A stretch of 52,908 bases of DNA. It comes from Bacteroidaceae bacterium. Lineage in GTDB: Bacteria; Bacteroidota; Bacteroidia; Bacteroidales; Bacteroidaceae. The notes beneath the pieces are model-generated. The model was not told the origin of the DNA. It saw only the letters and a program-made list of their open reading frames with translations, and did not search any database. The translations under genes and the position numbers were made by a program. The DNA lies in contig JAFUPU010000065.1 in assembly GCA_017472635.1 (NCBI GenBank), forward strand, positions 1 to 52,908, given 5' to 3'. Each line of letters opens with the position of its first letter. The first letter of the stretch is position 1. This document shows, one piece after another, positions 1 to 46,292 of this stretch.

Positions 1-80
1 AATACCAATGTTCATCAGGTGAAAAGAGACAGGCAGCGGAAAACAAAATTATAATATAAAAAATAAACATATGAAGAAAA
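1..80 (+). repeat. Copy 1 of ~80-bp duplicated leader before NVEALA gene 1
   Basis: This stretch covers the untranslated leader and first codons of the first NVEALA gene. It recurs almost exactly at 2987-3067 before the second NVEALA gene. From position 14 to 80 the copies are identical (compare 3001-3067); upstream of that they differ by a single inserted base. The copy starts at the window edge, so its true left end is not visible. It contains no clear TAnnTTTG box; it is A-rich just before the ATG, as is usual for Bacteroidales translation starts. Confidence 0.95.
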
Positions 81-445
81 TGATTACAGCAACTTTTGCA
101 GTTGCAATAGCCGCAATGGCAGGATATAACACTTATTTGTCACACGTTGAAGATGGCATGTCAGATATGGTGTTGGAGAATGTAGAGGCATTGGCAGATG
201 ATACGGAGAATGGAAGTTTAAATGGAAATACAACTTGGCAAGAAGGAGAAAAAACAATAGTGACAGAAACATTTACAACTACAACACCGGGATATACTTG
301 GGATGCAGAATTGAATGTTTGGCTATTAAATGGTAGTGTAGTGTTGACATCTCCTCCTGATACAAAAAAGGAAATAACAACAGTTAAATTAAAATGTTGT
401 AGAGAGAAAGGAGATTTAAAGGTCTGCAGTTATGAAGCCTGCTAG
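71..445 (+). CDS. NVEALA-family secreted peptide 1
   Basis: A 124-residue protein with a short hydrophobic N-terminus (about residues 4-17, AMA at 15-17 could be a signal peptidase site), then an acidic stretch ending in the family motif NVEALA at 37-42 followed by DD. The remainder is Thr-rich and ends with four cysteines (109, 110, 119, 124), the last one being the C-terminal residue. The family is known from gut Bacteroidetes, usually beside beta-propeller lipoproteins; its function is not established to my knowledge. The 3' end overlaps the next start by 14 bp, indicating translational coupling. I infer a secreted precursor peptide whose motif may be a second processing site. Confidence 0.88.
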   Translation: MKKMITATFAVAIAAMAGYNTYLSHVEDGMSDMVLENVEALADDTENGSLNGNTTWQEGEKTIVTETFTTTTPGYTWDAELNVWLLNGSVVLTSPPDTKKEITTVKLKCCREKGDLKVCSYEAC

Positions 446-1583
446 AATTTTTATATTCCTGCTCTGTTTTGGGGGAGTATTAGCCGGTTGCTCTATGAAA
501 GAGCAGTCAGACACGCTTGTAGCAAACCACGAACTGTCAGTTGAAGTATCCAATTCGACAAGCTATAAACTGCCATCTTCCAGTGAGAGTATGACCTTGA
601 TACCTTTGCAGACAGCAGCGCATTGCCTGATAGGTGAGGTGGACAAACTGTATATGACGGCAGATTATATAATCGTATACGACCAGCGTAACAATCGGAT
701 ATTCCTGTTTGACAAAGCCGGCAACTTTGTCAGACAGATAGGTCAGAAGGGAGATGGACCGGAAGAGTACAATGCGTTCAGTGATGTTGTATATGATTAT
801 CAGACAGAACGGATTTATGCTTTCGAGCGTTTCCGGGAAAAGATGTATGTCTATAGTCTGGAGGGAACGTTAGAAAAGGTTATTCCGTCTGAGTTCGGTT
901 TCAATTCATTCATAAAGAGTGAAAAAGGGTATTGGATATATTCTTGTTTCAAGAAAAACAACCCCGAGCATCATTTGCTGATGCATGTCGATGAAGAACT
1001 GAGCCAAGTGTACGGACGTTTTTTTCCACAGGAGAATATAAACACCGTTCATTTCACCTCTCGCTTCACAGAGAATAGAACCGATGGTAGCCGATATTTC
1101 TATTTCGACGGGTCTGACGTCATCTGGCGTTTGTCTGATACCGCAGAGCCTTTCGCACATGTCGATTTTGGTGCTGGCACCTTACCTTACGAAGAGATGG
1201 CATGCGCCAAAGATATCGATAGCTACGATAAGTTGGTTCATCGTGCCACCCATGTCGGTTTTATCGACAATGTGCAAGTGTCTGATGACTGGCTCTTCTT
1301 CAACTGTAGTGAAAGCGGTTTGAACAAGGGTATAGCTGTCTATACGGTGAATCATAACCTGAAAGAGAAAACGACTCATATATATAAAGATATGATGTTG
1401 AAAAGCAGCGACCTTTCCTTAGAGTATAGGAGGCTGTTGCAAATCACTCAAGAGGGAGATTTCGTATACATGGTTTCTCCACAGAAACTCAACCGCTATG
1501 AATTGTATACATTGCAGGGGATACTTCCTCAAGTTGATGAAGAAAGCAATCCGGTCATTGTCTTGATGAAAGCGGGTGCGTAA
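432..1583 (+). CDS. 6-bladed beta-propeller lipoprotein 1
   Basis: This 383-residue protein has a lipoprotein signal peptide with lipobox LAGC (Cys20), so it is probably anchored in the outer membrane or periplasm. The body shows the pattern of Bacteroidetes 6-bladed beta-propeller (DUF4934/DUF5128, TolB-like) proteins: a PLQT strand near residue 57, a FDKAGNFVRQIG strand, and the turn GDGPEEY. It ends in the shared SNPVIVL motif. Its ATG lies inside the NVEALA gene, 14 bp before that stop, so the two are likely translated together. Such proteins are repeatedly found beside NVEALA peptides; I infer binding of the peptide or a ligand, but nothing here proves it. Confidence 0.85.
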   Translation: MKPARIFIFLLCFGGVLAGCSMKEQSDTLVANHELSVEVSNSTSYKLPSSSESMTLIPLQTAAHCLIGEVDKLYMTADYIIVYDQRNNRIFLFDKAGNFVRQIGQKGDGPEEYNAFSDVVYDYQTERIYAFERFREKMYVYSLEGTLEKVIPSEFGFNSFIKSEKGYWIYSCFKKNNPEHHLLMHVDEELSQVYGRFFPQENINTVHFTSRFTENRTDGSRYFYFDGSDVIWRLSDTAEPFAHVDFGAGTLPYEEMACAKDIDSYDKLVHRATHVGFIDNVQVSDDWLFFNCSESGLNKGIAVYTVNHNLKEKTTHIYKDMMLKSSDLSLEYRRLLQITQEGDFVYMVSPQKLNRYELYTLQGILPQVDEESNPVIVLMKAGA

Positions 1584-1641
1584 AAAAACAGTTGCTTTTC
1601 ATAGAGCAAAACTAAACAGTAGAATATAAATAAAATAGAGA

Positions 1642-2835: not shown

Positions 2836-2845
2836 ACAGATAAAA

Positions 2846-2890
2846 GGGATGGAAAGAGATCACAGTACCAATCATTCTTCTCTCCATCCC
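2846..2890 (+). terminator. Imperfect hairpin after propeller 2, weak terminator candidate
   Basis: GGGATGGA at 2846-2853 can pair with TCCATCCC at 2883-2890, with additional imperfect pairing of the flanking purine and pyrimidine tracts. No T-run follows, so it may only be a 3'-end or processing hairpin before the second leader copy. Confidence 0.3.
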
Positions 2891-2986
2891 CCGATTCCCT
2901 AAAAGAAAGGAGGTTAAACCGATGCAAAGATAAGCAATTAATTCGGAACGGGCAAATCAATGGCTGCAAACTTCCCGTACCCGTTG

Positions 2987-3067
2987 AATACCAAGTGTTC
3001 ATCAGGTGAAAAGAGACAGGCAGCGGAAAACAAAATTATAATATAAAAAATAAACATATGAAGAAAA
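2987..3067 (+). repeat. Copy 2 of ~80-bp duplicated leader before NVEALA gene 2
   Basis: Second copy of the sequence at 1-80, with one extra G near its left end. It runs through the start codon and the first residues (MKK) of the second NVEALA gene, after which the two genes diverge completely. Conservation stopping just inside the coding region points to a regulatory leader or to a recombination boundary. Confidence 0.95.
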
Positions 3068-3483
3068 TTAAAATAGTATTGATCGCTTTAGGTCTGATTG
3101 GATTTTTTGGAGTGAATATCCATACGTTGATATCTGATGAAAGTATAGATCGACTTTTGTTGTTAGAAGGTGTGGAAGCTTTGGCAGATGATGAAGTAAT
3201 AATTGGCAATGATTCCAAAAAATATCATTTGCTTTCAATTTCTTGTGGTTCGTTAGATGATGCTATAGAGAATCCTGATGATTTTCAATCATGGTTTGAT
3301 CAGATGTGTAAGGATTTAGATTATCCAGAATGGACCAAATGCAATTTTAAAGAGTTAATGGACGATTTTCAAAAAGAAATAGAATATGGTGAAGCCGGTG
3401 CAAAAATAGTAGATGCATGTTTGTATTTAGGTTATAGTACTGCTCCATGTGACCCCGCCTATGACAATACATATTGCAATTAA
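3058..3483 (+). CDS. NVEALA-family secreted peptide 2 (six cysteines)
   Basis: A 141-residue protein with a hydrophobic N-terminal segment (residues 4-21) and the family motif in the form GVEALADD at 38-45. The region after the motif is unrelated to the first peptide but contains six cysteines (63, 84, 95, 121, 131, 140), an even number that would allow three disulfides in the periplasm or outside. There is no AxA site directly after the hydrophobic core, whereas the motif itself supplies ALA-D. The gene overlaps the following propeller gene by 23 bp. Base composition is clearly more AT-rich than that of the genes from 4690 on. Confidence 0.85.
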   Translation: MKKIKIVLIALGLIGFFGVNIHTLISDESIDRLLLLEGVEALADDEVIIGNDSKKYHLLSISCGSLDDAIENPDDFQSWFDQMCKDLDYPEWTKCNFKELMDDFQKEIEYGEAGAKIVDACLYLGYSTAPCDPAYDNTYCN

Positions 3484-4684
3484 AAAGATATGCGGATGTA
3501 TTTCCTTTGGGAAATATATCTGCATATTTTTAATATCGTTTTTTATATTGATGAGTTGCTCTTCTAATATTATGATGGAGGAACTTTGTGATTCGAATAC
3601 GAAAATAATCAAAGTGTCTCCAGATGGAGCTGTGGATTCTGTTTTGTACTCGTCGTTATTTGAAAATATAGAATACATACCATTGGAAACGACTGATAGT
3701 TCTCTTATAGGGAATATAGATAAACTGATTGTTGCAGAGAATAGCTTGGTAATTGTGGATAAAAGCATAACGAAAGCTATTTATTGCGTGGATAAAAAAG
3801 GTAAGTTTAAATTTAAAATAAGTGAATTAGGGATAGGACCAGATGAATATGTAGATATTAATGATGTGGATTTTGATGAAGCAAAACAAGAGTTCTTGAT
3901 TTATTCTACAGCTACTAATAAAATCGTATTTTATGGAACCAATGGACAATTCTTGTGCGCAAGAAAAGTACCTCATAAAGGCTTGGCTTTAGCAAAAACA
4001 AATGTTGGAAGTTTTGTTCTATATAGTTCGTATTTACCTCAAGCGAACAAAGATGATGGGGAAACTCCTAATATCTTGATTTGTGATGATGAAAAAGTAA
4101 TTGAGGAAAGCTTTTTGTTTGATAATAGGATTACTACATCTGTGACTTGGACTAGCTTCCCTTGGTTTTCTCGATTTAACGATACGTTGGCTATAAAACC
4201 AGATCATAATAATATTGTTTTTCATATTTGTAAAAATGAAATCAAACCTGCTTATATGTTTGATTTTGGGAAATATAATATTAATTCTGATTATTGGGAG
4301 GTGGCAACTTCAAAAGGGATGACCTCGAAAAGGATGAATGAATATGTAAATGAATCAGGTGTTTGTGAGAGTGTCCGTTTTTTGGAAAGTTGTGATTATG
4401 TGTATGTTGAATATTATCATCGGAATAGGACTTATCATATATTGTATTCCAAGAAAACTGGTAAGGTGTTGAATTTTAGAAAAGCAATTAATGATATTAA
4501 TTATCTATCCTCTTTTAATCCGATTGCAATAGAAAATGATAAATTATATGGTTTGATATCTCCTTCAATTCTTGCGAGAATTAGTTCAGATAAGATTAGA
4601 AAACTTTTGTTTGGAAGTGAAATAGGTGAAGTGGAATTTTCAGACAATCCTATATTAATAGTTTTTAAATTGAAACAATTCTGA
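3461..4684 (+). CDS. 6-bladed beta-propeller lipoprotein 3
   Basis: This 407-residue lipoprotein has a long signal peptide with lipobox LMSC (Cys33). I chose the ATG at 3461; a GTG at 3449 in the same frame would add four residues. Family motifs are IPLETTDSSLIGNI, FKFKISELGIGPDEY and the C-terminal DNPILIVF. The start lies inside the upstream NVEALA gene, reproducing the overlap seen for the first cassette. It is strikingly AT-rich, like the NVEALA gene before it, suggesting that the pair entered together. A 5-bp gap leads to the next gene. Confidence 0.82.
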   Translation: MTIHIAIKKICGCISFGKYICIFLISFFILMSCSSNIMMEELCDSNTKIIKVSPDGAVDSVLYSSLFENIEYIPLETTDSSLIGNIDKLIVAENSLVIVDKSITKAIYCVDKKGKFKFKISELGIGPDEYVDINDVDFDEAKQEFLIYSTATNKIVFYGTNGQFLCARKVPHKGLALAKTNVGSFVLYSSYLPQANKDDGETPNILICDDEKVIEESFLFDNRITTSVTWTSFPWFSRFNDTLAIKPDHNNIVFHICKNEIKPAYMFDFGKYNINSDYWEVATSKGMTSKRMNEYVNESGVCESVRFLESCDYVYVEYYHRNRTYHILYSKKTGKVLNFRKAINDINYLSSFNPIAIENDKLYGLISPSILARISSDKIRKLLFGSEIGEVEFSDNPILIVFKLKQF

Positions 4685-4689
4685 ATGAT

Positions 4690-7179
4690 ATGAGAAAAAT
4701 ACATTTAATCGTTTTTCTTTTGGTAGTCCCCATGTTGGCATTAGCCCAACAGCCGGTCGAGTTATTTTTCCGTAATGAATTGGGCTTGATGCGTGAGAAA
4801 CTCTACTTGCATACCGACAAGCCCTATTATGCCGCTGGTGACACCATCTGGTTCAGAGGCACGCTGGTCAATGCCGACACCCATTCTTATCTGGTGAAGA
4901 CAAACTATATCTATGTAGAACTGTTGACCCCCACCGATTCGTTGGTGACCCGAAAGAAATTGAAACGCGACGGGCTATGTTTTCACAACAATATCCCGCT
5001 GGAGGTAGACCTTCCGGAGGGTGATTACTATCTGCGTGGATATACCGAATGGATGCGTAACTTTGACAACTGTTACTTTTTCTCTCGCAAGATTTCGGTA
5101 TGTAATCAGATGAATAAGGGCAAGACGCCGGTGGTGAAGAGCTACGACTATGCAGTGACATTCCTTCCTGAAGGAGGACCTTTGTTGGGAGGTGTTCGGC
5201 AACGTATCGCTTTTATTGCCCAACGTAGCGATGGACATTCAGAAGAGGTGCAGGGGAAAATCTATATAGAAGGGGGAGACACACTTGCCCATTTCGCTTC
5301 CATACACAATGGAATGGGTATGGTGGAACTGGAGGTTCCTGTGGGGAAAAGAGTTTTTGCCCGAACCATCTCGCAGACAGGTGGAGAAGTGCGTACTTTC
5401 CCATTGCCTGTAGCCGAAAGCAATGCATATGCCTTAAAGGTCTGTTCCATTCAAGACACCTTGTTGGAGGTCAGTGTCCTCTCATCAGCAGGAACCCCTC
5501 TCCTTGATGGATTACAAGTGGTGACGCATACACGAGGCATTTATACCGGCATATATCCGGTGAAAGCGGGTACTGTCACAATAGCTACCGGTGCCTGGAA
5601 AGATGGCATCAGCCAACTGTTACTCTGTACTGCCACAGGAGAGACGTTAAGCAGACGGTTGGTATTCATTCATAACAACCTGCATACCGAAACATGGCAG
5701 CTGAAGACAGACCGTCCTCTCTACGGAGCACGCGAGCGGATGCAGATAGATTTCACACTTGCCGGTGAAGGATGGAACTCATTACAAGGTGACTTCTCAG
5801 TGAGTGTGACAGATGCACATGCAATAGAGCCGGACCTTGCAGGCGACAATATTGTATCCAATCTGTTGCTCAACAGTGATCTGAAGGGAGAGATAGAATC
5901 TCCTGGCTGGTATTTTCAGGACGAGGAGGGAAGATTGGAGAAACTGGACCTGGTCATGCTTACCCACGGATGGAGTCGTTTTGATACACACAACCTGTCT
6001 GTCAGGAATGAATATCCGCTAACCTATGCTATTGAAGCAGTACAGTATATCAGCGGACATGTGGAAGGAATCTCACCCGATGAAAAGAACAACCTGATAA
6101 GCATCTACAATCCTGATGACCGTCAGTTTGCTTCTGATGTAGTCCGCCCCGATGGAACATTCAGTCTCGAAGGGTTGGATTTCCCCGATTCAACTTATTT
6201 TGGTGTACGCCTGCTTTCTAAAAAGAAGTACCAGCGTAAAATCTACATTGATAAACCAACCTATCCGCAGAGCGGCTACAAGCAGATGTTTGTATGCAAT
6301 CAACAGATACCTATGCCGGAGCGTCAGCGTTATATCCCCGAGCATATGACTTCTATCATGTTGCCCGATATAGAAGTGAGGGAATCGCGCCGGAGCCGTT
6401 TTAAGACGAACAGTGGCAGTTTTTATGCTTCAGCGTGGAATGTGCAAGAGTTGCAAGCACTCTATGATCCGAACAGTCTGGTGACAGTGCTCGATTTTGT
6501 GAACCATCTGTTGGAGACCACACATGCCGGACTTATTTTTGGACATGGCTGTACCAACTATCTGGATGGAGCAGACTTTGAACAGGGAGCCGTTTGGGGA
6601 CCTTTGAAGAGCTGTGTGGTTAACACCGATTCATATACAGGATATGATGAAGTCTACAGTGCCCTTTCCCGCATCAGCTTGTACAGTGTCGACCGTATTG
6701 AAATACATCGGGGAGCACCTTTAGGGTATTTCCAACGTAAAAACAATATGAGTGCAGGCACTTCAAGTATGGGACAGCATCACGAGATAATGACAGCCGA
6801 TATAAACCTGTCAGTGTCTGATATAAACTCTTTGGCGGGTGGTGCAACCAAAAGTCCTTCCTGTATCCTCATACGTTTCAAACCCGGTGCTGACTATATG
6901 CAACAAGCTCCTGACCCCCGCAAACGAGTTGTGTGGCCTAAGGGATATGCTTATCCTGCCTATTTCTATCATCCGGCTTATGATACCGAAGAGAAAAAAC
7001 GGCAACCTCATGATGACAAGCGTACCACTCTCTACTGGAATCCGTCGGTACAGACAGACAAGGCTGGCAAAGGAAGCATCGCCTTCTACACCTCCGACTC
7101 ACCCCGCAACTACACCCTTACCATCGAGGGAGTTACGATTGACGGTAAACCGGTATATTGGCAACAGACATTGTTTTGA
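4690..7179 (+). CDS. Large secreted MG2/TonB-plug-like protein 1 (barrel-less)
   Basis: An 829-residue protein with a cleavable signal peptide (ALA before Gln20). Its N-terminus has the motif EKLYLHTDKPYYAAGDTIWF (36-55), typical of macroglobulin MG2-like domains in Bacteroidetes. Later parts resemble a TonB-receptor plug (SVDRIEIHRG near residue 678), and the protein ends in a beta-sandwich-like segment containing LYWNPSVQT. No TonB barrel follows. Such proteins are often annotated as TonB-dependent receptor plug or carboxypeptidase-regulatory-like proteins. It directly follows a propeller gene and has a paralogue next door. The role is unknown; surface or periplasmic binding is plausible. 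Confidence 0.8.
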   Translation: MRKIHLIVFLLVVPMLALAQQPVELFFRNELGLMREKLYLHTDKPYYAAGDTIWFRGTLVNADTHSYLVKTNYIYVELLTPTDSLVTRKKLKRDGLCFHNNIPLEVDLPEGDYYLRGYTEWMRNFDNCYFFSRKISVCNQMNKGKTPVVKSYDYAVTFLPEGGPLLGGVRQRIAFIAQRSDGHSEEVQGKIYIEGGDTLAHFASIHNGMGMVELEVPVGKRVFARTISQTGGEVRTFPLPVAESNAYALKVCSIQDTLLEVSVLSSAGTPLLDGLQVVTHTRGIYTGIYPVKAGTVTIATGAWKDGISQLLLCTATGETLSRRLVFIHNNLHTETWQLKTDRPLYGARERMQIDFTLAGEGWNSLQGDFSVSVTDAHAIEPDLAGDNIVSNLLLNSDLKGEIESPGWYFQDEEGRLEKLDLVMLTHGWSRFDTHNLSVRNEYPLTYAIEAVQYISGHVEGISPDEKNNLISIYNPDDRQFASDVVRPDGTFSLEGLDFPDSTYFGVRLLSKKKYQRKIYIDKPTYPQSGYKQMFVCNQQIPMPERQRYIPEHMTSIMLPDIEVRESRRSRFKTNSGSFYASAWNVQELQALYDPNSLVTVLDFVNHLLETTHAGLIFGHGCTNYLDGADFEQGAVWGPLKSCVVNTDSYTGYDEVYSALSRISLYSVDRIEIHRGAPLGYFQRKNNMSAGTSSMGQHHEIMTADINLSVSDINSLAGGATKSPSCILIRFKPGADYMQQAPDPRKRVVWPKGYAYPAYFYHPAYDTEEKKRQPHDDKRTTLYWNPSVQTDKAGKGSIAFYTSDSPRNYTLTIEGVTIDGKPVYWQQTLF

Positions 7180-7296
7180 ACGGAATAGAGGAAAGTTATG
7201 AGTGTGACGAGCAAATATTGAATCTGCTTTGCACGATTGAGAGATAGAAATGTATATGATAACTAAGGTACAGATATTTTTAATGATTTTACCGCT

Positions 7297-9792: not shown

Positions 9793-9808
9793 AAAGATTT
9801 ATAGATAT

Positions 9809-10444
9809 ATGAAAAAAACGTTGATTTATTTAGTGATAGGTTTATTGATAGTGGTAAATATTGTACTTTTATTTAGGCTTCAGAAAACTAAAACTTTGAC
9901 AGAACGTGTCAGTGACCAATATGCTAAAATGAGTATCGAGGAAGTGAGAAACTCTACCAAATTGGCTCGTAATATGCTGTTACAACACATGGCGGAAAAT
10001 GTAACATTACCTATAGTGAAAAGTTTAAATCCTTATTCGGGAGATACAATATTGTTGTCTGATATTCTTAAACAAGAAGAAAATACACTATGTTTTCGTA
10101 TCAAAGAAACCCATTGCGATGCTTGTGTACAACATGGACTTAGACTATTGAAACAGGTAAGTGAAGAGCCGGGAAGTAACATTGTAGTGTTATGTGGTTT
10201 TATGAATACCCGCCAGTTTGTAGCATTCTCAAAAGCACAAAACAAGAGATTAAGTGTTTATAACGTAACTCGGATAGCATGGGAGGTTGATGAATTTGAT
10301 GAACCTTACTTCTTTGTCGTGTCGAAAGATGGAAAAGTGCATAATCTGTTTGTTCCACTAAAAGAAGATGAGAGATTGACAGAGAGGTATATGCATGGGG
10401 TGCAACAGAAATATTGGGAAGAGAAGGTGAATTGTAATCATTGA
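9809..10444 (+). CDS. Membrane-anchored thioredoxin-like protein 1
   Basis: With the ATG at 9809 this gives 211 residues; a GTG at 9779 would add ten and overlap the previous gene. An N-terminal transmembrane anchor (residues 5-22) is followed by a domain with HCDACV, a CxxC pair at 103 and 106, and DEPYFFVV, where the Pro resembles the cis-proline of thioredoxin folds. It looks like a TlpA-like periplasmic thiol protein. A gene of the same architecture lies at 17721. Placed beside cysteine-containing NVEALA peptides, it could handle their disulfides; this is inference. Confidence 0.65.
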   Translation: MKKTLIYLVIGLLIVVNIVLLFRLQKTKTLTERVSDQYAKMSIEEVRNSTKLARNMLLQHMAENVTLPIVKSLNPYSGDTILLSDILKQEENTLCFRIKETHCDACVQHGLRLLKQVSEEPGSNIVVLCGFMNTRQFVAFSKAQNKRLSVYNVTRIAWEVDEFDEPYFFVVSKDGKVHNLFVPLKEDERLTERYMHGVQQKYWEEKVNCNH

Positions 10445-10451
10445 AAAAGGT

Positions 10452-12419
10452 ATGTATAGGTTTGGGGGATTGTTGGTGATATTGAGCATCTTTCTTTGGA
10501 GCGGATGTAAAGATACTGTCATAGATAAGGTGTTGTTGCATGCCGGTGAAAACCGAGGTGAACTGGAGCGTGTGCTGCTACACTATGAGGGGGACAGCTT
10601 GAAGCAGTTGGCTGCAATGTTTCTTATAGAGCATATGATGTATAAGTCGTATTATACCGGTGAGCAGGTAAAACACTATGACCGCTTGCTGGAGGCTTAT
10701 GACTCGTTGAGAATACATGAACAGGTTTTGGCGGGAGACCCGCCTGCTATCAAAAGGCTGTGGAATGATTTGTTGCGGGAACATGGCACGTTAAGCCGGT
10801 ATAATCTGCAACGTCAATGGGACTGTCAGACATTGAAAGCGGACTTTTTGATTGAAAACATAGATTGTGCCTTTGAGGCATGGGAGAGTACTCCAGAGCG
10901 GTGGAAGTGCAGCTTTGCACAGTTTCTCGAATATGTGTTACCCTATAGGGTTGGACAGGAGGTGCCGGAATCGTATCGGCGGGTCTATTACGAGCGTTAT
11001 AGCGGAATCCGGGACACGACGGATACTGACAGTCTGCTGATGGTGAGGATGAATGACCAGTTCTTTTGGAAAGAACATTACCGGAACAGTGAACTGATGT
11101 GGAGTTATCCGCTTGACTTGTCGGTGAGTCAGATGGAGACAGGAAAACGGGGAACTTGTCATCACTTGAGTAACTATTGTGCTTTGGTGATGCGTGCCAT
11201 GGGACTGCCGGTTGCCATTGACCACGTCATGCGTTGGGGGAACCGGAGCAAAGGGCATGCATGGAATGTGCTGATACATCCTGATGGAAGTGGTTATCCG
11301 TTTGATGCCTTTGCGAGAGACAGTCTGAAGTTTGCCTATAAACCGGCAAAGATATTGAGGCGGATGTTTTCGGTTGATGCAGACAGAACAGAACAACCGT
11401 CAACAGAGGATGTACCCATTGAACTGTTGCAACCCGATGAACGGGATGTGACTCACTTGTATGGGAAAACTTATGACGTGGAGGTTGATTGTATCTATCC
11501 GTACGAAGGGAAAGGCAAGAAAAAACATGGAGTCATCTGTGTGTTTGACAATAAAGAGTGGCAACCGATATGGTGGGGCAAGATATATAAAGAAAAGATG
11601 CGGTTTGAAAATATGATGGGAGATGTATGCTATATGGCTGCTTACTATGAGAAGGGGAGATTGTATCCGGCAAGTGCTCCCTTTATACTGACAAAAGAGG
11701 GAGAGATGCGGAAACTGAACATTGACCCGAATGTGAAGGCAGACATGAAGCTGCTGCGGAAATATCCACGATTTGAACGGATGGACATGCATGCCATGAA
11801 ATTGCGACGCTCGCGTATTGAGGGAGCTAATGATGCAGCTTTCAGAGATACGGTCTTGTTGTTTGACCAGTTTGAAACTCCGCACGATGTCAATGATTCG
11901 TTAGTGAGAAGAACTGATTTGAAGTTCCGTTTCGTAAGATGGAAAATAGCGAAATACCGGACAGGAGACTTGGCTGAAGTTGAGTTTTATGGAAAACGGA
12001 CATTGGATGGACTTGAAGAGAAGTTGAATGGAACTGTCATCGGTGCTCCTGAACCGACAGGAGAGACAGCGCACCCTTATCAGTATGCCATGGATGGAGA
12101 CCCGGCAACCTTCTTCAGCAAACCAAAAAATCAAACAGGTTATGTAGGACTTGACTTGGGAGAAGGGAACGAGGCTTACATTACCCGAGTGCATTTCCAT
12201 CCGAGGAGTGACACAAACTATATACTTATAGGAGACACCTATGAACTCTGCTATTGGGATAAAGACCGGTGGGCGAGTGCAGGAAAGCAGATTGCAACAA
12301 GGCATGAACTGACCTTCAAGGAGGTTCCTCAAGGTACTTTCTATATATTGAAAGACCTGACGAAAGGCAAGGAAGAGCGTATCTTCACTTACGAAGGTGG
12401 GGAGCAGGTATGGTGGTGA
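10452..12419 (+). CDS. Transglutaminase-like lipoprotein with discoidin-type C-terminus
   Basis: A 655-residue lipoprotein (lipobox WSGC, Cys19). The middle contains a transglutaminase/cysteine-protease fold with a complete triad: Cys236 in GTCHHL, His269 in GHAWN and Asp285 in YPFDAF. The last ~130 residues resemble an F5/8 type C (discoidin) sugar-binding domain, including YAMDGDPATFFSK and GYVGLDLGE. Related Bacteroidetes proteins are annotated as transglutaminase domain-containing. It is only 7 bp after the thioredoxin-like gene. It may be a periplasmic or surface protease or crosslinker acting on partners of this locus; the substrate is unknown. Confidence 0.82.
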   Translation: MYRFGGLLVILSIFLWSGCKDTVIDKVLLHAGENRGELERVLLHYEGDSLKQLAAMFLIEHMMYKSYYTGEQVKHYDRLLEAYDSLRIHEQVLAGDPPAIKRLWNDLLREHGTLSRYNLQRQWDCQTLKADFLIENIDCAFEAWESTPERWKCSFAQFLEYVLPYRVGQEVPESYRRVYYERYSGIRDTTDTDSLLMVRMNDQFFWKEHYRNSELMWSYPLDLSVSQMETGKRGTCHHLSNYCALVMRAMGLPVAIDHVMRWGNRSKGHAWNVLIHPDGSGYPFDAFARDSLKFAYKPAKILRRMFSVDADRTEQPSTEDVPIELLQPDERDVTHLYGKTYDVEVDCIYPYEGKGKKKHGVICVFDNKEWQPIWWGKIYKEKMRFENMMGDVCYMAAYYEKGRLYPASAPFILTKEGEMRKLNIDPNVKADMKLLRKYPRFERMDMHAMKLRRSRIEGANDAAFRDTVLLFDQFETPHDVNDSLVRRTDLKFRFVRWKIAKYRTGDLAEVEFYGKRTLDGLEEKLNGTVIGAPEPTGETAHPYQYAMDGDPATFFSKPKNQTGYVGLDLGEGNEAYITRVHFHPRSDTNYILIGDTYELCYWDKDRWASAGKQIATRHELTFKEVPQGTFYILKDLTKGKEERIFTYEGGEQVWW

Positions 12420-12423
12420 CAGC

Positions 12424-13347
12424 ATGAAGGAGGAGTATGGGATGAAAGAGCATTGGAGAAAAGGAATGAAGAGGGTATCGGATGTGGCCTATTGGTTGTT
12501 GCTGGTGGCAATGGGCATGGGGATGCTCTATATGGTGGCAACGGTCTTTTGGGTGGCAAAATTTAAAATCCCTTCTGACTCAATGGAACCGGCATTGCTG
12601 GAAGGTGACTACCTGTTGGTAGAGAAACTGACCATGGGGGCAAGATTGTTTGACTTGAAACCGGCTTTTGCCAAAGAGGAGTTTGACATCTACCGTATGC
12701 CTGCTTTGGGGAAGGTGGAACGGAATGACATATTGGTCTTCAATTATCCTTTTCCGACAAGAAAAGACAGCATTGCCTTTGACGTGATGCTCTATTATGT
12801 GAAAAGGTGTATAGCGCTGCCGGGGGATACGCTGGAGATAAGGAACGCTCATTACCTGATAAACGGAAAGGATTCCGGGGGGAACATAGAGGCGCAAGAG
12901 CGGTTGGAACGCCTGTTCAGAGAGAAACGGACAAAGGAGTATGGCATTGTGACGCGTAGCTATCCGCGTGACAGAAAGGTGGGATGGAGCATCCGAGAGA
13001 TGGGACCGCTGTATCTGCCACGGAAAGGTGACAGGTTGCCTATGAACCGTATGAACTACCTGTTGTATTATCCACTGATTGAATGGGAGACAGGAAGGGA
13101 CCTTGTCTGGGTGAATGACTCGCTCGTCACGTCAGGAGGTGAAAGGTTGGAGACCTATAGGTTTGAAAACAATTACTATTTTGTGTCCGGTGACAAGATG
13201 GAGAACTCGAAAGACTCGAGATATTGGGGGCTGTTGCCTGAACCCTATATTGTGGGAAGAGCCTGGCTGATATGGAAATCGGTGGATGAATGGGGGAATA
13301 TGAGATGGGACAGGATTGGACGAATTGAAAAAATGGGGTTGGAGTGA
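12424..13347 (+). CDS. lepB: Signal peptidase I, locus-embedded
   Basis: A 307-residue type I signal peptidase with one N-terminal transmembrane helix (about 22-42). All family boxes are visible: IPSDSMEP with nucleophile Ser53, YYVKRCIALPGD with general base Lys127, and GDKMENSKDSRYWG near the C-terminus. I chose the ATG at 12424, just after the upstream stop; the ATG at 12442 follows a purine-rich AAGGAGGAG and is a real alternative. The gene sits inside the NVEALA/propeller cluster rather than beside housekeeping lep partners, so I suspect a dedicated substrate. It overlaps the next gene at TGATG. Confidence 0.92.
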   Translation: MKEEYGMKEHWRKGMKRVSDVAYWLLLVAMGMGMLYMVATVFWVAKFKIPSDSMEPALLEGDYLLVEKLTMGARLFDLKPAFAKEEFDIYRMPALGKVERNDILVFNYPFPTRKDSIAFDVMLYYVKRCIALPGDTLEIRNAHYLINGKDSGGNIEAQERLERLFREKRTKEYGIVTRSYPRDRKVGWSIREMGPLYLPRKGDRLPMNRMNYLLYYPLIEWETGRDLVWVNDSLVTSGGERLETYRFENNYYFVSGDKMENSKDSRYWGLLPEPYIVGRAWLIWKSVDEWGNMRWDRIGRIEKMGLE

Positions 13348-15107
13348 TGAAGTCGGCTGGATGGGTAAAGTGTGTGGAGACGGTATGTGTGGGGGCATTG
13401 CTTGCCGGATGTCTATGGTGTATCTTGCAACCTATGGTGGCAGACGGGGCGGCTCTGCGTGCCGACACCGGACAGGCAGGAGCCTGGACTGTCTTTTATC
13501 GGTATGGAAGTGTCGGGGTGGTCGGACTGTGGATGGCTGCCTTATTGCTGCCGCAAAGATGGATACACCGATTGCCTGACATGGCAGCCTGGATGTTGAT
13601 GGGGATGGTGATATGGGAAACGGTGGTGGCGTTGGAACAGCTGTATGGCGAAAGGCTCTCTAACCACGCATTGTATAGGTTTACCGGAACATTTCTGAAC
13701 CCGGGACCTTTCTGCGGATTCATTGCTATGGGGATGCCTTTGGCTCTGCATGTCTTGATGGATGTCGATAAGAGGGAGACTGGCATGTCGGGGGAAAGTG
13801 AGAGTAGGCTGCCTCAGTGGATGGAGAGGCTGGTGTGTAGGGCGGCTAAGATGATTGCTTATCTTACCTTGCTTCTTTGTCTGCTGTTGTTGCCGGCAGG
13901 GATGAGCCGTTCGGCATGGGTGGCTGCTACTGTTGGATGTGTGGCGGTAGTGATGATGCACCGGTGGGAGAGATGCAGAGAGTGGTGGCGTGTCTTCAGA
14001 CGAAGCCGTAAGAGACAGATGGCGGTTTTGTTGCTTGCCGTAGGGTGTGTAACAGCCGGATGGGGTGCTTTTAACCTGAAGAGAGAGTCTGCCAATGGAA
14101 GGCTGTTTATGTGGAAGATTGCCTCTCTTGTCATTGCCGAACGACCTTGGACCGGATATGGAGGTGAGGGATTTCAGGCTGCATTTGCAAGAAGACAGGA
14201 ACGGTATTTTGCCGCAGGGAACGGTACTGACGGAGAGAGGTATGTGGCAGGTACACCCGAACATGCGTTTAATGAATACCTGACAACGACGGTGAAGTAT
14301 GGGGTAGGGGGAGTGTTGCTTATGGTGGCTATAGGTGGGACGGCACTTGCTTGTGCTTGGAGGATGCGCGCTTATGGTATAGCCGCTTCCCTATTGGCGG
14401 TGGCTGTGTTTGCCTGGTCGTCTTACCCATTGCAATTGCCTGATTTTGGGTCGGCAGTGGCGGTGTTGGTGGTGGTGCCTATCTGTACGTATTGCAGGGA
14501 GTGGGCAGTTCGGACATCGGGAAAGAGAGGAAGGCATAGATGGTTGGCGGCTCTTCTTGTCTCTGCCGTATTGGCTGTGCCCTTTGTGTGGTGGAGAATG
14601 AAACAGGCAGCACGTTGGCAGATGCGGGATGAAGCTGCCCAAGCGTGGAGCCTCGCGCGTACATTATATAATATAAAGGCATACGAGACCGTGTGTAAAG
14701 ACTATGCTCTTTTATATGAACGGATGGGGTGGAATGATGACTACCTGTTTGAATATGGACGGGCATTGCACTATGCCGAACGGTATGAAGAGTCGATGAA
14801 GATATTGAAAGAGGCGGAAGCGGTGTGTGGAGACCCTATGATATTGAACCTGTGTGGTAAGAATCATGAAGCCATGGGAGAATATGACTTGGCGGCACGG
14901 TGTTACCAACAAGCGTATGACAGAGTGCCGAGCAGGCTTTATCCGCTCTATCTGTTAATGGAGATGTATGCTTCGCCTGCCTGTGGGAAAAAGGAAAAGG
15001 CGAAAGAGGTGGCACAGACAATAGTGAAGACAAAAGAGAAGGTACCCTCTCAAGCGGTGGAGGATATGAAGAGACGGGCTAAAGAGATTTTGCAGGGAGG
15101 GGATTGA
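13347..15107 (+). CDS. O-antigen-ligase/Wzy-like membrane protein with C-terminal TPRs
   Basis: This 586-residue polytopic protein has about ten hydrophobic segments in residues 10-415 with a large loop containing RFTGTFLNPGPFCGF and WTGYGGEGF, features of Wzy_C/O-antigen ligase proteins. The last ~140 residues are hydrophilic and look like tetratricopeptide repeats (for example MGEYDLAARCYQQAYD). The ATG at 13347 shares a base with the upstream stop; a GTG at 13344 is also possible. Ligases of this kind attach glycans to lipid or protein acceptors. There are no glycan-synthesis genes nearby, so its substrate in this operon is unclear. Confidence 0.78.
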   Translation: MKSAGWVKCVETVCVGALLAGCLWCILQPMVADGAALRADTGQAGAWTVFYRYGSVGVVGLWMAALLLPQRWIHRLPDMAAWMLMGMVIWETVVALEQLYGERLSNHALYRFTGTFLNPGPFCGFIAMGMPLALHVLMDVDKRETGMSGESESRLPQWMERLVCRAAKMIAYLTLLLCLLLLPAGMSRSAWVAATVGCVAVVMMHRWERCREWWRVFRRSRKRQMAVLLLAVGCVTAGWGAFNLKRESANGRLFMWKIASLVIAERPWTGYGGEGFQAAFARRQERYFAAGNGTDGERYVAGTPEHAFNEYLTTTVKYGVGGVLLMVAIGGTALACAWRMRAYGIAASLLAVAVFAWSSYPLQLPDFGSAVAVLVVVPICTYCREWAVRTSGKRGRHRWLAALLVSAVLAVPFVWWRMKQAARWQMRDEAAQAWSLARTLYNIKAYETVCKDYALLYERMGWNDDYLFEYGRALHYAERYEESMKILKEAEAVCGDPMILNLCGKNHEAMGEYDLAARCYQQAYDRVPSRLYPLYLLMEMYASPACGKKEKAKEVAQTIVKTKEKVPSQAVEDMKRRAKEILQGGD

Positions 15108-15208
15108 AGAATAAGAGGGAGACCTTGATTTACGAGCATAAAAGTTTGTGTAGAAATGGGAGGAAGAGTATAAACAGACTGTTAGAAAAATATAAAATAG
15201 TGGAAATT

Positions 15209-15240
15209 GTTGCTTGTGTTTGAAGATTTCTTTACCTTTG
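15209..15240 (+). promoter_or_regulatory. Sigma-ABfr-type promoter for the efflux operon
   Basis: A -7 box TACCTTTG at 15233-15240 is preceded 20 nt upstream by GTTG at 15209-15212. The spacing fits the Bacteroides consensus. Transcription would begin near 15246 and leave an untranslated leader of about 65 nt before the adaptor gene. Confidence 0.6.
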
Positions 15241-15310
15241 TGGAGAAAAAATGTGAAAAGGTGAATTGGGCTGATGGCAATGAACCTGATAAATACAAAA
15301 TGGGAATAGT

Positions 15311-16408
15311 ATGAAAAAGAATAGATTGTATGTGGGGGTAATGACGATGGTACTGCTTTTGGGTGCCTGTCAGGGGGATGAGAAAAGCAATGACGAAAAG
15401 TCGGAACGGGTAAATGAGACTGCCGGGGTGGCTGTGCAGGGAAGTCAGGAGCCTATCGTAAAAATTGTGGTAGAGGAAAAACCCTTTTACAGAGAGTTGG
15501 CAGGGAATGGTAAAGTGAAGGCGGTGCGCTCGTCGGAACTGCGTTTCAACACAGCAGGATGGGTAGAACATGTGTGGGTGAAGAATGGCGACCGTGTGCG
15601 TGCCGGACAGAAGCTGGCACAACTGGAACTGTTTCGGTTGGAGAAGTCACTTGCACAGGCAAAGGACAACTTGGCACAGAGTGAACTGGAGTTGCAGGAT
15701 GTGTTGATTGGACGAGGCTATTCGTTGGACCGGCAAGATGAAGTTCCCGATGAAGAGATGGAACTGGCAAAGGTGAAGAGCGGATATAACAAGGCACTCA
15801 TAGCCTGGCAACTTGCCGAAGAGGAGTTGCGAAAGGCTACACTCTATGCTCCGTTTGACGGGGTGATAGCCAACTTGAATACGAAGGAACTGAATATGGC
15901 ACCTACCGGAGAGCCTTTCTGTTTGGTGCTGAATGACAGGCAGGTGGAGGTGAACTTTGCTGTGCTTGAGAGTGAACTGGCATTGTTGGCGGTTGGTACG
16001 GAGGTGACGGTTGTACCTTTTGCTCAGGAGGCGGTTGGTAAAACATTGCATGGCAGGGTGGTGGAAATCAATCCCTATGTAGAGAGTAACGGCATGGTGC
16101 AGGTGAAAGCGGTGGTGACTAACAATGGTACGTTGCTGGAAGGTATGAACGTGAATGTGTTGCTGCGTAACCGGATGGCAAAGAGTCTGGTCATCCCTAA
16201 AAGTGCGGTGGTGATGCGTTCGGGGAAGACGGTCGTATTTACTCAAGTGAAGGGAAAGGCGCAATGGAACTATGTGCAGGTAGTGGCTGAAAACAGTGAT
16301 TCGTGTGTGGTGGCTCCCCGTAGCAAAGAGTATGAAGGGCTGTCTGCAGGAGACACTGTAATCGTAGCCGGCAATCTGAATCTGGCACATGATAGTGAGT
16401 TGAAATAG
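15311..16408 (+). CDS. RND efflux periplasmic adaptor lipoprotein
   Basis: A 365-residue HlyD/MexA-type membrane fusion protein with lipobox LGAC (Cys20). The barrel-sandwich half motifs VEHVWVKNGDRVRAGQKLAQL and ATLYAPFDGVIANL flank an alpha-helical hairpin, and a beta-barrel follows (EVTVVPFAQ). It would connect the inner-membrane pumps to TolC. The pump does not follow directly: two other genes (16460-18332) lie between them, which is unusual for this operon type. Confidence 0.9.
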   Translation: MKKNRLYVGVMTMVLLLGACQGDEKSNDEKSERVNETAGVAVQGSQEPIVKIVVEEKPFYRELAGNGKVKAVRSSELRFNTAGWVEHVWVKNGDRVRAGQKLAQLELFRLEKSLAQAKDNLAQSELELQDVLIGRGYSLDRQDEVPDEEMELAKVKSGYNKALIAWQLAEEELRKATLYAPFDGVIANLNTKELNMAPTGEPFCLVLNDRQVEVNFAVLESELALLAVGTEVTVVPFAQEAVGKTLHGRVVEINPYVESNGMVQVKAVVTNNGTLLEGMNVNVLLRNRMAKSLVIPKSAVVMRSGKTVVFTQVKGKAQWNYVQVVAENSDSCVVAPRSKEYEGLSAGDTVIVAGNLNLAHDSELK

Positions 16409-16459
16409 TGACAAACTATTAGCTACAAGTGACGAGAGTGACCATTAAGATCTAAAGTT

Positions 16460-17686
16460 ATGAAAAAGATTAATGTAATATTATTGTCATGTTTGTTTTT
16501 TGTTGGTTGTAATAGCAATAACGAGACAAAGTCATCCTATACAGAATCTGAAATAGCATCATTGCATTTGGATAAAACAAAAGCATTATCCATAGGAACT
16601 GAAGAAATAGAGATTGTAGATTTAAATTCTCATCTGCAGAATGAAGGTTTTGATTTTACACCTTTAGTTAAAAACATTCTTTTTGTACCTTTAGAATCTA
16701 ATGATAATAGTCTGATAGCTAATATATATAAAATTGTCTTTGAAAAAGAATACATATATATATATGATGATTATTTAGGCGGAGGAGTGGCTATTTTTAC
16801 CAATAGTGGAAAATTCATTAAAAGAATACCTAATGGTGCTGGACCGGGTGAATTATACAGAATTTCTGATATAACATTTAATCAAGACCAAGGGCAGTTA
16901 TTAGTTTATCAACATCCGTATATATTATATTATACAAAGACGGGAAATTATATCACTCAAAAGAAACTCCCATTTGGATTTTATAATTTTGAATCAATCG
17001 GTGAACATCTGCTATTTAAGACATTGGATAGTAAGGGGAATCAACATTTGGAGAAAATAAAGAATAACACATTGTTTGTAACTGATCAGGATTTTAAGAT
17101 TGAATTTTCTGGATTGAGTTCTCCTGAATATAAAGCTAACTATGGGGGATATCATTATTTAAAAAAGAATGGGAATGATATTCAAATTGTAGAAAATAAT
17201 AATGATACAATTTTTCACTACGATGATTCAACAAATGAAATTAAAGCTGTTTATCTATTAGATTACGACAAAAAGAAATTGCCTGAAGAGTATTGGGCAC
17301 TGTCTGGTCGGGAATTTACGAAGGCATTGTCGAATAATAATTATTTTTTCTTTATTGGTGAGTATTTTGAAACAAAAACACATCATGCTATTTTCTTGAG
17401 AAACAATTATCTTCGAAAAACATTTGTTTATTATCGCGACAAAATGACAGGAGAAATTGTTGGCGGTTGCAACGCAAATGTTGATATAGAACAAATACCT
17501 CCTATTGCTTTTCCTAAAAGTGTATACGGTAATTACTTTATATCAATATATCACCCTAATGGTGCTTGTCCATTCATTAATAGCCGTTTTCTATCAGCAA
17601 AAGACAAATCATTGTTGCAATCAATGACTGAAGATGATAATCCTGTATTGGTATTATATGAACTAAATCGTTTTACATCGAAGTGA
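16460..17686 (+). CDS. 6-bladed beta-propeller lipoprotein 4, within efflux operon
   Basis: A 408-residue lipoprotein (lipobox FVGC, Cys17) of the same family as those at 432, 1642 and 3461. Shared motifs are FVPLESNDNSLIANI, GAGPGELYRI and the C-terminal TEDDNPVLVLYEL. It is much more AT-rich than the adaptor before it and the pump two genes later, and it has no NVEALA gene directly upstream. Its position between adaptor and pump suggests insertion into a pre-existing operon or recruitment to it. Gaps are 51 bp before and 34 bp after, so it is probably co-transcribed. Confidence 0.85.
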   Translation: MKKINVILLSCLFFVGCNSNNETKSSYTESEIASLHLDKTKALSIGTEEIEIVDLNSHLQNEGFDFTPLVKNILFVPLESNDNSLIANIYKIVFEKEYIYIYDDYLGGGVAIFTNSGKFIKRIPNGAGPGELYRISDITFNQDQGQLLVYQHPYILYYTKTGNYITQKKLPFGFYNFESIGEHLLFKTLDSKGNQHLEKIKNNTLFVTDQDFKIEFSGLSSPEYKANYGGYHYLKKNGNDIQIVENNNDTIFHYDDSTNEIKAVYLLDYDKKKLPEEYWALSGREFTKALSNNNYFFFIGEYFETKTHHAIFLRNNYLRKTFVYYRDKMTGEIVGGCNANVDIEQIPPIAFPKSVYGNYFISIYHPNGACPFINSRFLSAKDKSLLQSMTEDDNPVLVLYELNRFTSK

Positions 17687-17720
17687 TAACATAATCATCA
17701 CTTAGCTATATTAAATAATT

Positions 17721-18332
17721 ATGAAAAGATTAATGTATTTCTTTTTTGTTTTATTGATGCTATCATTTAATATTGTTTTATATATTGATCATCTTCAATA
17801 TAAAGAACAAGTTTCATCGCGTTTACATGCTGCGCAAATAGAGTCCGAGGAATATTTAATAATGAAAGAAAATTTTGAAGCTTCAATATTATGTAATTCT
17901 ATAACATTCGATTCTTTAATATGTTGTGATGTTAATGATTCCGTTTATGATTTCAGTGACTTATTTAAGAGTCAAACAAACAAGATTCTTATATGTCGTT
18001 TTTCAGAACTTGATTGTGAAAATTGCATAAATCATGCAATTGAAACATTAAAAAGCAAGGCAGGTATTGAAACTAGTAGCATTGCTTTCCTTTGTTCATA
18101 CAGAAATAGTGCTATGTTATCAAAAATGATAGAGTATTATCAATTAGATTCTTACAAAGTATATAATACAAAATTAACTATTACTCCGATTGATGAGTGG
18201 GGAAAACCATATTATTTTATTATCGATAGTAATTTGACAATCTCTGATATTATAATTCCAGAAAAAATTAATAATGAAATCCAAGAGTTGTATTTTAATA
18301 ATCTGAAACAGAAACATTTTATAGCTTACTAA
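17721..18332 (+). CDS. Membrane-anchored thioredoxin-like protein 2
   Basis: A 203-residue protein with an N-terminal transmembrane segment (5-22) and the CxxC pair CENC at 99-102, followed by the thioredoxin-type cis-Pro context WGKPYYFII. Overall layout and length match the protein at 9809, although sequence identity by eye is low. It ends 1 bp before the RND pump starts. Together with the upstream propeller it forms an AT-rich pair embedded in the efflux operon. Likely periplasmic thiol-disulfide activity; the partner is unknown. Confidence 0.65.
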   Translation: MKRLMYFFFVLLMLSFNIVLYIDHLQYKEQVSSRLHAAQIESEEYLIMKENFEASILCNSITFDSLICCDVNDSVYDFSDLFKSQTNKILICRFSELDCENCINHAIETLKSKAGIETSSIAFLCSYRNSAMLSKMIEYYQLDSYKVYNTKLTITPIDEWGKPYYFIIDSNLTISDIIIPEKINNEIQELYFNNLKQKHFIAY

Positions 18333-44875: not shown

Positions 44876-44930
44876 AATCTTATTTCTTTTAATTTGTTAT
44901 ATCCTTATTGTAAACTGATTGTCTTGTTGA

Positions 44931-44938
44931 CAAATTTA
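44931..44938 (-). promoter_or_regulatory. -7 box upstream of the LRR gene
   Basis: TAAATTTG on the - strand about 56 nt before the start codon, overlapping the end region of the upstream gene. No good -33 element at the proper distance. Confidence 0.4.
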
Positions 44939-44939
44939 C

Positions 44940-46220: not shown

Positions 46221-46261
46221 AATACATTAAGTTTTTGTTTGTAATGTTTTTTTGTATGATA

Positions 46262-46292
46262 CAAATATATAGGAGATTTTTTGAAATACAAA
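46262..46292 (-). promoter_or_regulatory. Promoter of the beta-helix gene
   Basis: On the - strand TTTG (46292-46289), 19-nt spacer, TATATTTG (46269-46262). A full consensus match placing the transcript start about 36 nt before the ATG and excluding a longer N-terminus with a signal peptide. Confidence 0.75.

Follow-up and report, generated by a model that had tools for sequence, protein, structure and literature searches.

Bacteriocin loci of the pln/blp type place many variable peptides behind one leader, with a dedicated leader peptidase and exporter, and they also carry matched partner genes, orphan partners, and a conserved extra peptide beside a regulator. Pro-peptides of the heat-stable peptide type pass through Sec, form their disulfides in the periplasm, and exit through a TolC-type pump. 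Here we analyze a locus in which NVEALA peptides and 6-bladed propeller lipoproteins, gut bacterial genes that are named yet unexplained, stand together with a signal peptidase I and an RND pump. It occupies positions 71–26271 of the + strand of contig JAFUPU010000065.1 (G000:C14; assembly GCA_017472635.1, a Bacteroidaceae bacterium); the window is this one whole contig, 52,908 nucleotides long, from an incomplete genome (2.14 Mb, 65% complete). Like pln/blp-type loci, NVEALA loci share the leader/variable-peptide design, a putatively dedicated peptidase and exporter, matched and orphan partners, and a regulator-adjacent peptide; unlike them, the window set features no ABC-peptidase transporter and no two-component pair, and in their place stand Sec, signal peptidase I, propellers, and RND. 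To the heat-stable peptide type the locus is likened by scheme, not by sequence: the proposed route is again Sec, periplasmic disulfides, and a last step via a tripartite pump, with the differences that the pump is of the RND type and that both peptidase and partner would be dedicated.

Small secreted Bacteroidales peptides have been described as bacteroidetocins, which in the mature form have 42 residues and four Cys, with a thiol oxidoreductase in the gene region (PMC6671954, excerpts). By the same excerpts, the bacteroidetocin leader has 15 residues and is cleaved behind GG, the transporter is ABC-like and carries a double-glycine peptidase domain, and an immunity gene is not obvious; Bacteroides are also said to be without general disulfide machinery, local thiol oxidoreductases being the likely substitute (PMC6671954). 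The CxxC genes of NVEALA loci agree with this view. NVEALA peptides resemble bacteroidetocins in their predicted cores (median 41 residues, most commonly with 4 or 2 Cys, across 251 distinct peptides) and in their local CxxC proteins, and differ from them in the NVEALA-ending leader, the signal peptidase, the RND pump, and the matched propellers. The leader cut expected of a bacteroidetocin or class II bacteriocin was not found: the site columns read L-A, not G-G, and the cores contain no conserved GG, some being G-rich just after the site. No ABC transporter with a peptidase domain was found among the window genes scanned.

Across the family these loci form a recurrent gene set; their peptides are split into leader and core and rich in Cys, and the core co-varies with the propeller encoded next to it. 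This last observation is one that the earlier note on this DNA missed, for the propellers are, judged by co-variation, not generic machinery but matched to the preceding peptide core. The gene following the peptide encodes a propeller for 99 of 121 peptides, and for 211 of 277 in a larger set. Co-variation was assessed on 185 peptide-propeller neighbours from 69 genomes, with cores shorter than 15 residues and propellers shorter than 250 residues excluded and with four named loci, together with Phocaeicola vulgatus, merged with already included genomes. The mean between-genome propeller similarity is 0.04. The share of propeller pairs above 0.2 climbs steadily with core similarity, from 8/15,382 (0.05%) for cores below 0.15, through 3.2% (n=1,183) at 0.15–0.25, 27/59 (46%) at 0.25–0.35, 28/39 (72%) at 0.35–0.5, and 28/30 (93%) at 0.5–0.7, to 13/13 (100%) above 0.7. 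Leader similarity, on the other hand, is without effect on the propellers at core similarity below 0.35, where every leader bin gives 0–0.55% (n=16,624). Leader similarity in the top three core bins is 0.42, 0.50, and 0.82, versus 0.35 overall; because leaders are thus somewhat more alike where cores are alike, part of the like-core pairs are close orthologs.

Several controls make simple synteny an unlikely source of this pattern. At core similarity of 0.25 or more, 96 of 141 propeller pairs exceed 0.2, versus a mean of 14.0 and a maximum of 33 in within-genome shuffles, from which the 22 of 69 genomes that hold a single pair are necessarily exempt. Sorting the cores into 33 genome-spanning groups, we find that most propeller pairs exceed 0.1 in all 33 (shuffle mean 4.3, maximum 10) and 0.2 in 25 (mean 2.7, maximum 8); in the 8 groups unmatched at 0.2, mean propeller similarity is 0.15–0.41. 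The 20 core groups with unlike leaders behave in the same way, with 20 above 0.1 and 13 above 0.2 (shuffle means 2.3 and 1.1). When the comparison is confined to the same two loci, the similarity of own propellers is above 0.2 in 59 of 92 cases, versus 20 of 92 for the best other propeller, and these 20 matches tell us that some shared synteny exists. Together with the leader control, these results led us to set simple synteny aside. Since it is the core, and not the leader of the same gene, that tracks propeller similarity, core and propeller behave as a unit kept together, as a bound pair predicts, and we consider core-propeller matching across the family highly probable from the sequences compared. 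Neither the rule nor the system was found in the open literature searched.

The peptides themselves display the division on which this rule depends. Counting repeats of leader plus core once per genome and dropping those with no recognisable site reduces 277 peptides to the 251 distinct ones. Conservation of the leader in these reaches as far as N-[VI]-E-A-L-[AS] (N in 97%, E in 98%, A in 97%, and L in 96%), a finding that is partly circular because the peptides were found by that leader. For the central 90% of 231 leaders, the site comes 22–27 residues past the end of the stretch with the highest hydrophobicity. Beyond it, the predicted cores are variable, and Cys accounts for 7.9% of core residues versus 0.89% of leader residues; the count per core is even in 185 of 251, odd in 62, and none in 4. 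In one genome (G080), 21 paralog pairs picked for their like leaders have a DNA identity of at least ~0.9 ahead of the predicted site and of ~0.3 immediately behind it, and leader similarity is 0.59 within genomes versus 0.35 between them. The cores thus look as though they have been exchanged behind a fixed leader. A ribosomally synthesized and post-translationally modified peptide (RiPP) with its modifying enzyme was rejected, as 12 peptides gave no known precursor family above cut-off in NCBIfam and the window proteins scanned gave no match to a RiPP precursor or modifying-enzyme family.

To judge how far the gene set holds together, we searched 201 genomes of the family for co-occurrence, using hand-compiled genome lists, cut-offs set by eye at score gaps (98 bits for the peptidase, 370 bits for the pump, of which only 3 candidates per genome were scored), and Fisher tests that take genomes as independent. 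PF14055 matches occur in 36 of the 201 genomes, with up to 20 in one genome, and relatives of the window signal peptidase at 98 bits or more are found at 42 places in 37 genomes; the next matches lie at about 80 bits and mostly span residues 183–310 only. NVEALA and this peptidase clade occur together in 28 genomes, with 8 having NVEALA only, 9 the peptidase only, and 156 neither (p=1.8e-19). Of the nine 'peptidase only' genomes, four (L040, L041, L047, L048) have NVEALA-like peptides that Pfam misses and the leader profile recovers, and in L045 a divergent NVEALA-like peptide can be read; none was seen in L046, L049, L050, or L051. Relatives of the window RND subunit at 370 bits or more occur in 50 of 201 genomes, including 31 of the 36 with NVEALA and 35 of the 37 with the peptidase; peptidase and pump clades are both present in 35 genomes, the peptidase only in 2, the pump only in 15, and neither in 149 (p=7.3e-25). 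Both the signal peptidase and the efflux set, which the earlier note had listed as companions of the NVEALA peptides, are therefore represented by distinct clades that co-occur with them, and the peptidase also co-locates. A scan of 247 genomes of the phylum produced a match in 4, with 2 above cut-off, both in the window's family and one being the window itself. That the cluster is a true recurrent system, in part of the gut Bacteroidales, we regard as very likely.

Gene neighborhoods point the same way. In 42 peptidase-centred stretches, the window included (some being short contigs, with mechanical gene calls), we find propellers in 32, Wzy-like genes in 32, NVEALA peptides in 30, transglutaminase-like genes in 30, CxxC or DUF1573 genes in 28, ACR in 21, HlyD in 19, membrane winged-helix genes in 11, MauE-like genes in 9, and MG2 in 5. 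A scan of named genomes, limited to the best 80 of at least 577 confirmed places and taking 290 bits or more as the clade peptidase, separates 20 clade-peptidase loci from 60 others, a split that leaves among the others L096 and L111, which by identity or neighbors resemble clade members. NVEALA peptides are found in 14/20 versus 0/60, propellers in 16/20 versus 2/60, transglutaminase-like genes in 16 versus 1, Wzy-like genes in 16/20 versus 2/60, and OEP in 13 versus 0; at least one of peptide, propeller, transglutaminase-like, and Wzy-like genes is present in 19/20 versus 4/60. Among the matches listed, the named loci include Phocaeicola vulgatus ATCC 8482, Bacteroides rodentium, B. timonensis, Paraprevotella xylaniphila, and Prevotella aff. 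ruminicola, and the clade peptidase of P. distasonis (L094) has no labelled partner within its stretch. The P. vulgatus locus (NC_009614, about 82–101 kb) begins with a propeller and a divergent winged-helix gene; a class-b-like peptide, a CxxC lipoprotein, and a peptide with its propeller come next, then a transglutaminase-like gene, the peptidase, a second transglutaminase-like gene, and a Wzy-like gene, and finally HlyD, ACR, OEP, and ACR. Random neighbors were the outcome named beforehand as counting against the original proposal; what emerged is that neighbors are not random for the signal peptidase, CxxC/DUF1573, transglutaminase-like, and Wzy-like genes; MG2 genes are infrequent.

Additional partner genes came to light in these loci. 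One protein group, with 39 members in 32 of 61 loci at a first pass, consists mostly of CxxC lipoproteins, often with a C-terminal DUF1573, some members being the DUF1573 part alone; both CxxC cysteines are kept in 64 of 65 longer CxxC-lipoprotein group members. In some loci a MauE protein (PF07291) is a further partner, and others have membrane proteins with a C-terminal winged-helix, for which PF00486 is above cut-off in one of two examples and just under it in the other. In L034 (G033:C19:117000-136999) the CxxC-lipoprotein/NVEALA block is present twice with identical CxxC protein sequence, which looks like a recent duplication.

The window signal peptidase I (12397–13347, ATG start 12424) scores 112.9 bits with PF10502, and its Ser53 and Lys127, presumably the Ser-Lys dyad of signal peptidases, are invariant in 20 aligned sequences. 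The best split of the peptidase tree (support 0.76) gathers on one side 68 of the 70 sequences that have partner genes, along with 4 of the 48 that do not. Identity with a housekeeping LepB was rejected, given that LepB falls on the opposite side of this split and its neighborhood differs. We consider a signal peptidase step dedicated to NVEALA peptides probable. The two CxxC proteins of the window (9779–10444, membrane-anchored, ATG start 9809; 17721–18332) were called thioredoxin-like in the earlier note; the motif itself is invariant across 10 aligned sequences, these two included, and neither protein has a Pfam hit at E 0.1. For 9779–10444, profile comparison with the CxxC lipoprotein family gives a probability of 62% (E 7.4e-5), and the best PDB match of a window CxxC protein is a thioredoxin, weak at E 0.44.

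Taken together, these observations suggest a scheme in which pre-peptides would pass through Sec by means of their hydrophobic leader and would then be cleaved by the dedicated signal peptidase I after N-V-E-A-L-A, 22–27 residues beyond the hydrophobic stretch. Local CxxC proteins, and in some loci MauE-type proteins, would form the disulfides; the neighboring propeller lipoprotein would bind its own peptide and shield the producer; and the linked RND-OEP pump would expel the periplasmic peptide into the surroundings, its most likely targets there being related bacteria. We put it at an even chance that the locus produces small disulfide-bonded peptides for secretion and pairs each with a matching propeller, in what would most likely be a toxin-immunity-like arrangement, and antagonism with immunity we rate equally, as a balanced call. 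Export by the linked pump is moderately likely. Only tentatively, and just short of even, do we put forward the complete picture: a weapon (or signal) system of polymorphic secreted peptides that differs from the bacteriocins known so far, with variable disulfide cores swapped at the cleavage site behind a common leader, a private signal peptidase and RND exporter, a conserved inducer-like peptide with its own membrane regulator, and a large stock of matched propellers that serve non-producers as orphan immunity, the whole being sometimes plasmid-borne.

Signalling is the reading that best survives beside antagonism, and we consider it rather unlikely. Here the peptides would be pheromones and the propellers matched receptors or binding proteins feeding a regulator, with one conserved peptide class, class b (CxGxGxxxCP), as the core signal beside a membrane winged-helix protein. 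Class b is indeed suggestive, with 23 copies in 21 genomes, single in 19 of the 21, and with a membrane winged-helix gene as upstream neighbor in 21/23 cases versus 17/228 for other peptides; the pattern is strict, so that variants such as the P. vulgatus one escape these counts. Receptors would likewise co-vary with their ligands, and orphan receptors could eavesdrop. Yet class-b cores co-vary with the regulator no more strongly than leaders do (rho 0.23 versus 0.32; 135 comparisons, 17 of 23 peptides), and we rejected class-b peptide and regulator as a cognate pair because the co-variation is not specific. Variable, multi-copy, shuffled cores suit an arms race better than a shared signal, and propellers that are mostly lipoproteins have no visible route to the regulator.

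Orphan propellers bear on a further possibility, in line with the proposal of the earlier note: the cluster would serve maturation and export only, the propeller being a peptide-specific chaperone or carrier that passes the peptide to the pump. The tight gene order and the linkage of pump and peptidase are in keeping with this, and a chaperone, too, would co-vary with its client. However, 129 of 314 propellers lack a peptide gene immediately upstream (10 of the 129 being near a locus edge). Eighty-three of the 129 match a paired propeller of another genome, and for 66 of these 83 no matching-type core is present in the same genome's fetched loci, versus 27 of 103 paired propellers, an absence that is provisional because fetched loci are not whole genomes. 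Furthermore, among 11 genomes with the pump clade and without Pfam NVEALA or clade peptidase, 8 (L301–L305 and L309–L311, L302 also with a weak peptidase match) have propellers in the fetched pump stretch, where a pure carrier would be useless; propellers were not seen in the stretches L306 (3 kb only), L307, and L308. The carrier reading therefore strikes us as improbable, and the orphan patterns appear to fit non-producer immunity or eavesdropping receptors better. We rank immunity first because the cores are many, variable, and exchanged, which is a matter of judgement. In L301, L303, L304, and L310, the propellers, often several in a row, lie beside the linked RND pump.

Where the propellers reside is a related question. 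A lipobox (loose pattern) is present in 246 of 313 propellers, of which 23 show at least two acidic residues within positions +2 to +6, the motif that we take to be the surface-export signal. Such a signal was rejected as a general property of propellers in view of this count, and its scarcity is a weak hint that they are periplasmic.

Sixteen transglutaminase/Wzy loci (L285–L300), chosen for hits away from the clade peptidase, contain both genes in 14 cases and MG2 in 7 (6 within those 14), with no peptide by leader profile and one weak propeller match. Because transglutaminase-like and Wzy-like genes co-occur in such peptide-free loci, the pair forms its own module, which seems to have been taken into the present system; MG2 genes, being rare in peptidase-centred stretches and present in peptide-free loci, belong rather to another module, and MG2 was rejected as a core part on these grounds (5/42 versus 7/16). 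Sets of MG2, transglutaminase-like, and Wzy-like genes without NVEALA or clade peptidase can be seen in L285, L286, and L290, and L279, from the same genus and the closest relative of the window gene order, has one MG2 gene. In the window, the transglutaminase-like lipoprotein (10452–12419; PF01841) is followed, after the peptidase, by the Wzy-like membrane protein (13344–15107), with Wzy_C at 62.7 bits and, at its end, a TPR match of 25.2 bits, just below the cut-off of 27. The earlier note spoke of two MG2/plug proteins. MG2 holds for the first (4690–7179; 34.5 bits, cut-off 32.8), an accessory found oftener with the transglutaminase-Wzy module; the second (7297–9792), likewise accessory, has no Pfam hit at E 0.1 and owes the name to its similarity to the first; a plug domain was reported for neither.

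It is very improbable that the peptides are retained on the cell to serve as structural or envelope material, with the transglutaminase-like protein cross-linking them or the Wzy-like one modifying them. Both genes are, it is true, frequent in peptidase-centred stretches (30/42 and 32/42), and the expected active-site Cys236 and His269 are each kept in 54 of 55 transglutaminase-like sequences, but the two genes co-occur in 14 of 16 loci without any peptide (loci chosen for that), such variability together with matched partners would be surprising in a structural material, and the Wzy-like column matched by eye to the ligase loop His, which we take to be the conserved loop His of the WaaL/PglL O-antigen ligase type, reads Y in 28, F in 8, N in 4, and H in 3 of 49, the window protein having His.

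Several points weigh against the toxin-immunity-like reading, or against parts of it. Co-variation shows a matched unit, not what a propeller does, and the window's own two pairs are without close relatives (best propeller similarity 0.11 and 0.14), so that cognate pairing in the window rests on the family rule. Eight of the 36 NVEALA genomes are without the peptidase clade and 5 without the pump clade (for example G182, 99% complete), from which it follows that lone peptide-propeller pairs exist. Among the matches listed, 14 of 40 pump-clade places in NVEALA or peptidase genomes have neither gene within 20 kb, many contigs being short; the comparison used 42 NVEALA places, and its counts of near places are thus lower bounds, to be read as 'at least'. 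Of the 201 genomes, 141 have transglutaminase-like relatives and 71 have Wzy-like ones, many more than make up the NVEALA set, and only 13 have the window-type CxxC protein, other loci mostly having a different CxxC family that is weakly related to it. The scheme leaves the MG2, Wzy-like, and transglutaminase-like proteins without a role. A control on generic pump loci found a propeller in 0 of 3, with only 3 loci of 6 kb each.

Some of these loci are found on plasmids. By tblastn, the clade peptidase is found on four Phocaeicola plasmid records, with 45–47% identity over 89–99% of the query, besides two weaker hits. The P. vulgatus plasmid pPvulCL10_1 is annotated with NVEALA, 6-bladed beta-propeller, redoxin, lepB, O-antigen ligase, and transglutaminase genes, and an unannotated 159-kb Phocaeicola massiliensis plasmid record (L316, OY726023.1) contains the whole NVEALA set with winged-helix, six peptides, and pump. 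Table rows of one study name B. thetaiotaomicron BT0662 as an O-antigen ligase, BT0664 as a propeller, BT0667 as lepB, and BT0669 as a pump adaptor, with p from 0.11 to 0.35 (PMC10434189); going by the gene names in those rows, BT0662–BT0669 is apparently the same system.

In the open literature searched, a scope outside which most subscription papers and preprints fall, NVEALA, DUF4934, DUF5128, PF17170, and PF16288 were not found, and the matches to PF14055 were, judged by title, Plasmodium or enzyme models. A term search of the main text of a Bacteroidales peptide survey returned no propeller, signal peptidase, or transglutaminase (PMC10352776). PF14055 and DUF5128/DUF4934, the families of which window peptide 1 and all four window propellers are members, are names that carry no function. 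With the core-propeller rule, what was a vague co-occurrence yields a prediction open to test, namely which propeller binds which peptide, and with loci in the type strain Phocaeicola vulgatus ATCC 8482, apparently in B. thetaiotaomicron, and on Phocaeicola plasmids, genetics is feasible at once. If true, the scheme would amount to an undescribed route of competition or signalling among gut bacteria.

We turn finally to the window itself, where positions 71–26271 hold seventeen + strand genes, all with open reading frames and either separated by short gaps or overlapping: two NVEALA peptides, four propeller lipoproteins, two CxxC proteins, and, besides the MG2 pair, the transglutaminase-like lipoprotein, signal peptidase I, O-antigen-ligase-like protein, and RND pump. 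This bears out the closely spaced one-strand arrangement given in the earlier note, as well as its four propellers, all above the DUF5128 cut-off, and its transglutaminase-like, signal peptidase, O-antigen-ligase-like, and efflux genes, for which Transglut_core, Peptidase_S26, Wzy_C, HlyD, two ACR_tran, and OEP are each above their own Pfam cut-offs; its end at 18332, on the other hand, falls short, as the pump genes run on to 26271. Peptide 1 (71–445) has a leader of 42 residues ending in NVEALA and a predicted core of 82 residues with 4 Cys, and matches PF14055 at 40.2 bits (cut-off 27). Peptide 2 (3058–3483), with a 43-residue leader ending in GVEALA and a predicted core of 98 residues with 6 Cys, stays below the Pfam cut-off (13.4) and is recovered by the leader profile (38.6 bits), so the earlier count of two peptides stands in part by Pfam and in part by profile. 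Both peptide genes overlap the start of the next propeller gene, at 432–1583 (DUF5128/DUF4934), the predicted cognate partner of peptide 1 by the family rule, and at 3449–4684 (ATG start probably 3461). The propellers at 1642–2835 and 16460–17686 have no peptide of their own, and the latter is like a paired propeller of another genome (0.30). The DUF5128 propeller profile matches the solved relative 4raa (E 3.9e-37). The pump comprises a HlyD-type adaptor (15311–16408), the RND subunit from the clade linked to the system (18334–21552), an OEP/TolC-type outer-membrane channel (21647–23122), and a second RND subunit (23119–26271; ACR_tran).

A 71-nucleotide stretch at the start of peptide gene 1 (11–81, + strand), made up of its 5' untranslated region and initial codons, is repeated identically at peptide gene 2 (2998–3068, +); a 28-nucleotide piece of it gives 2 matches versus 0 in shuffles, and the contigs of the source genome hold just these two full copies plus one weak partial match. 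The repeat around both gene starts could be a recombination boundary or a common 5' control element. Promoter consensus scans, the second with what we take to be the Bacteroides consensus, were uninformative. A defence system was considered and rejected, PADLOC giving nothing convincing for 7 window proteins (one 16.8-bit hit, from the Wzy-like protein). The 5' side of the gene set is lost because the contig begins at window base 1. Downstream of 26271 the genes scanned are ordinary (chorismate synthase, acetate kinase, and others) and the strand switches at 26566; the set therefore seems to end at 26271. Farther along lie equally ordinary features, among them SecA, a BspA-type leucine-rich repeat protein, and a SusC/SusD-like pair (37548–40844, 43214–52381), with a tRNA-Leu at 42663.

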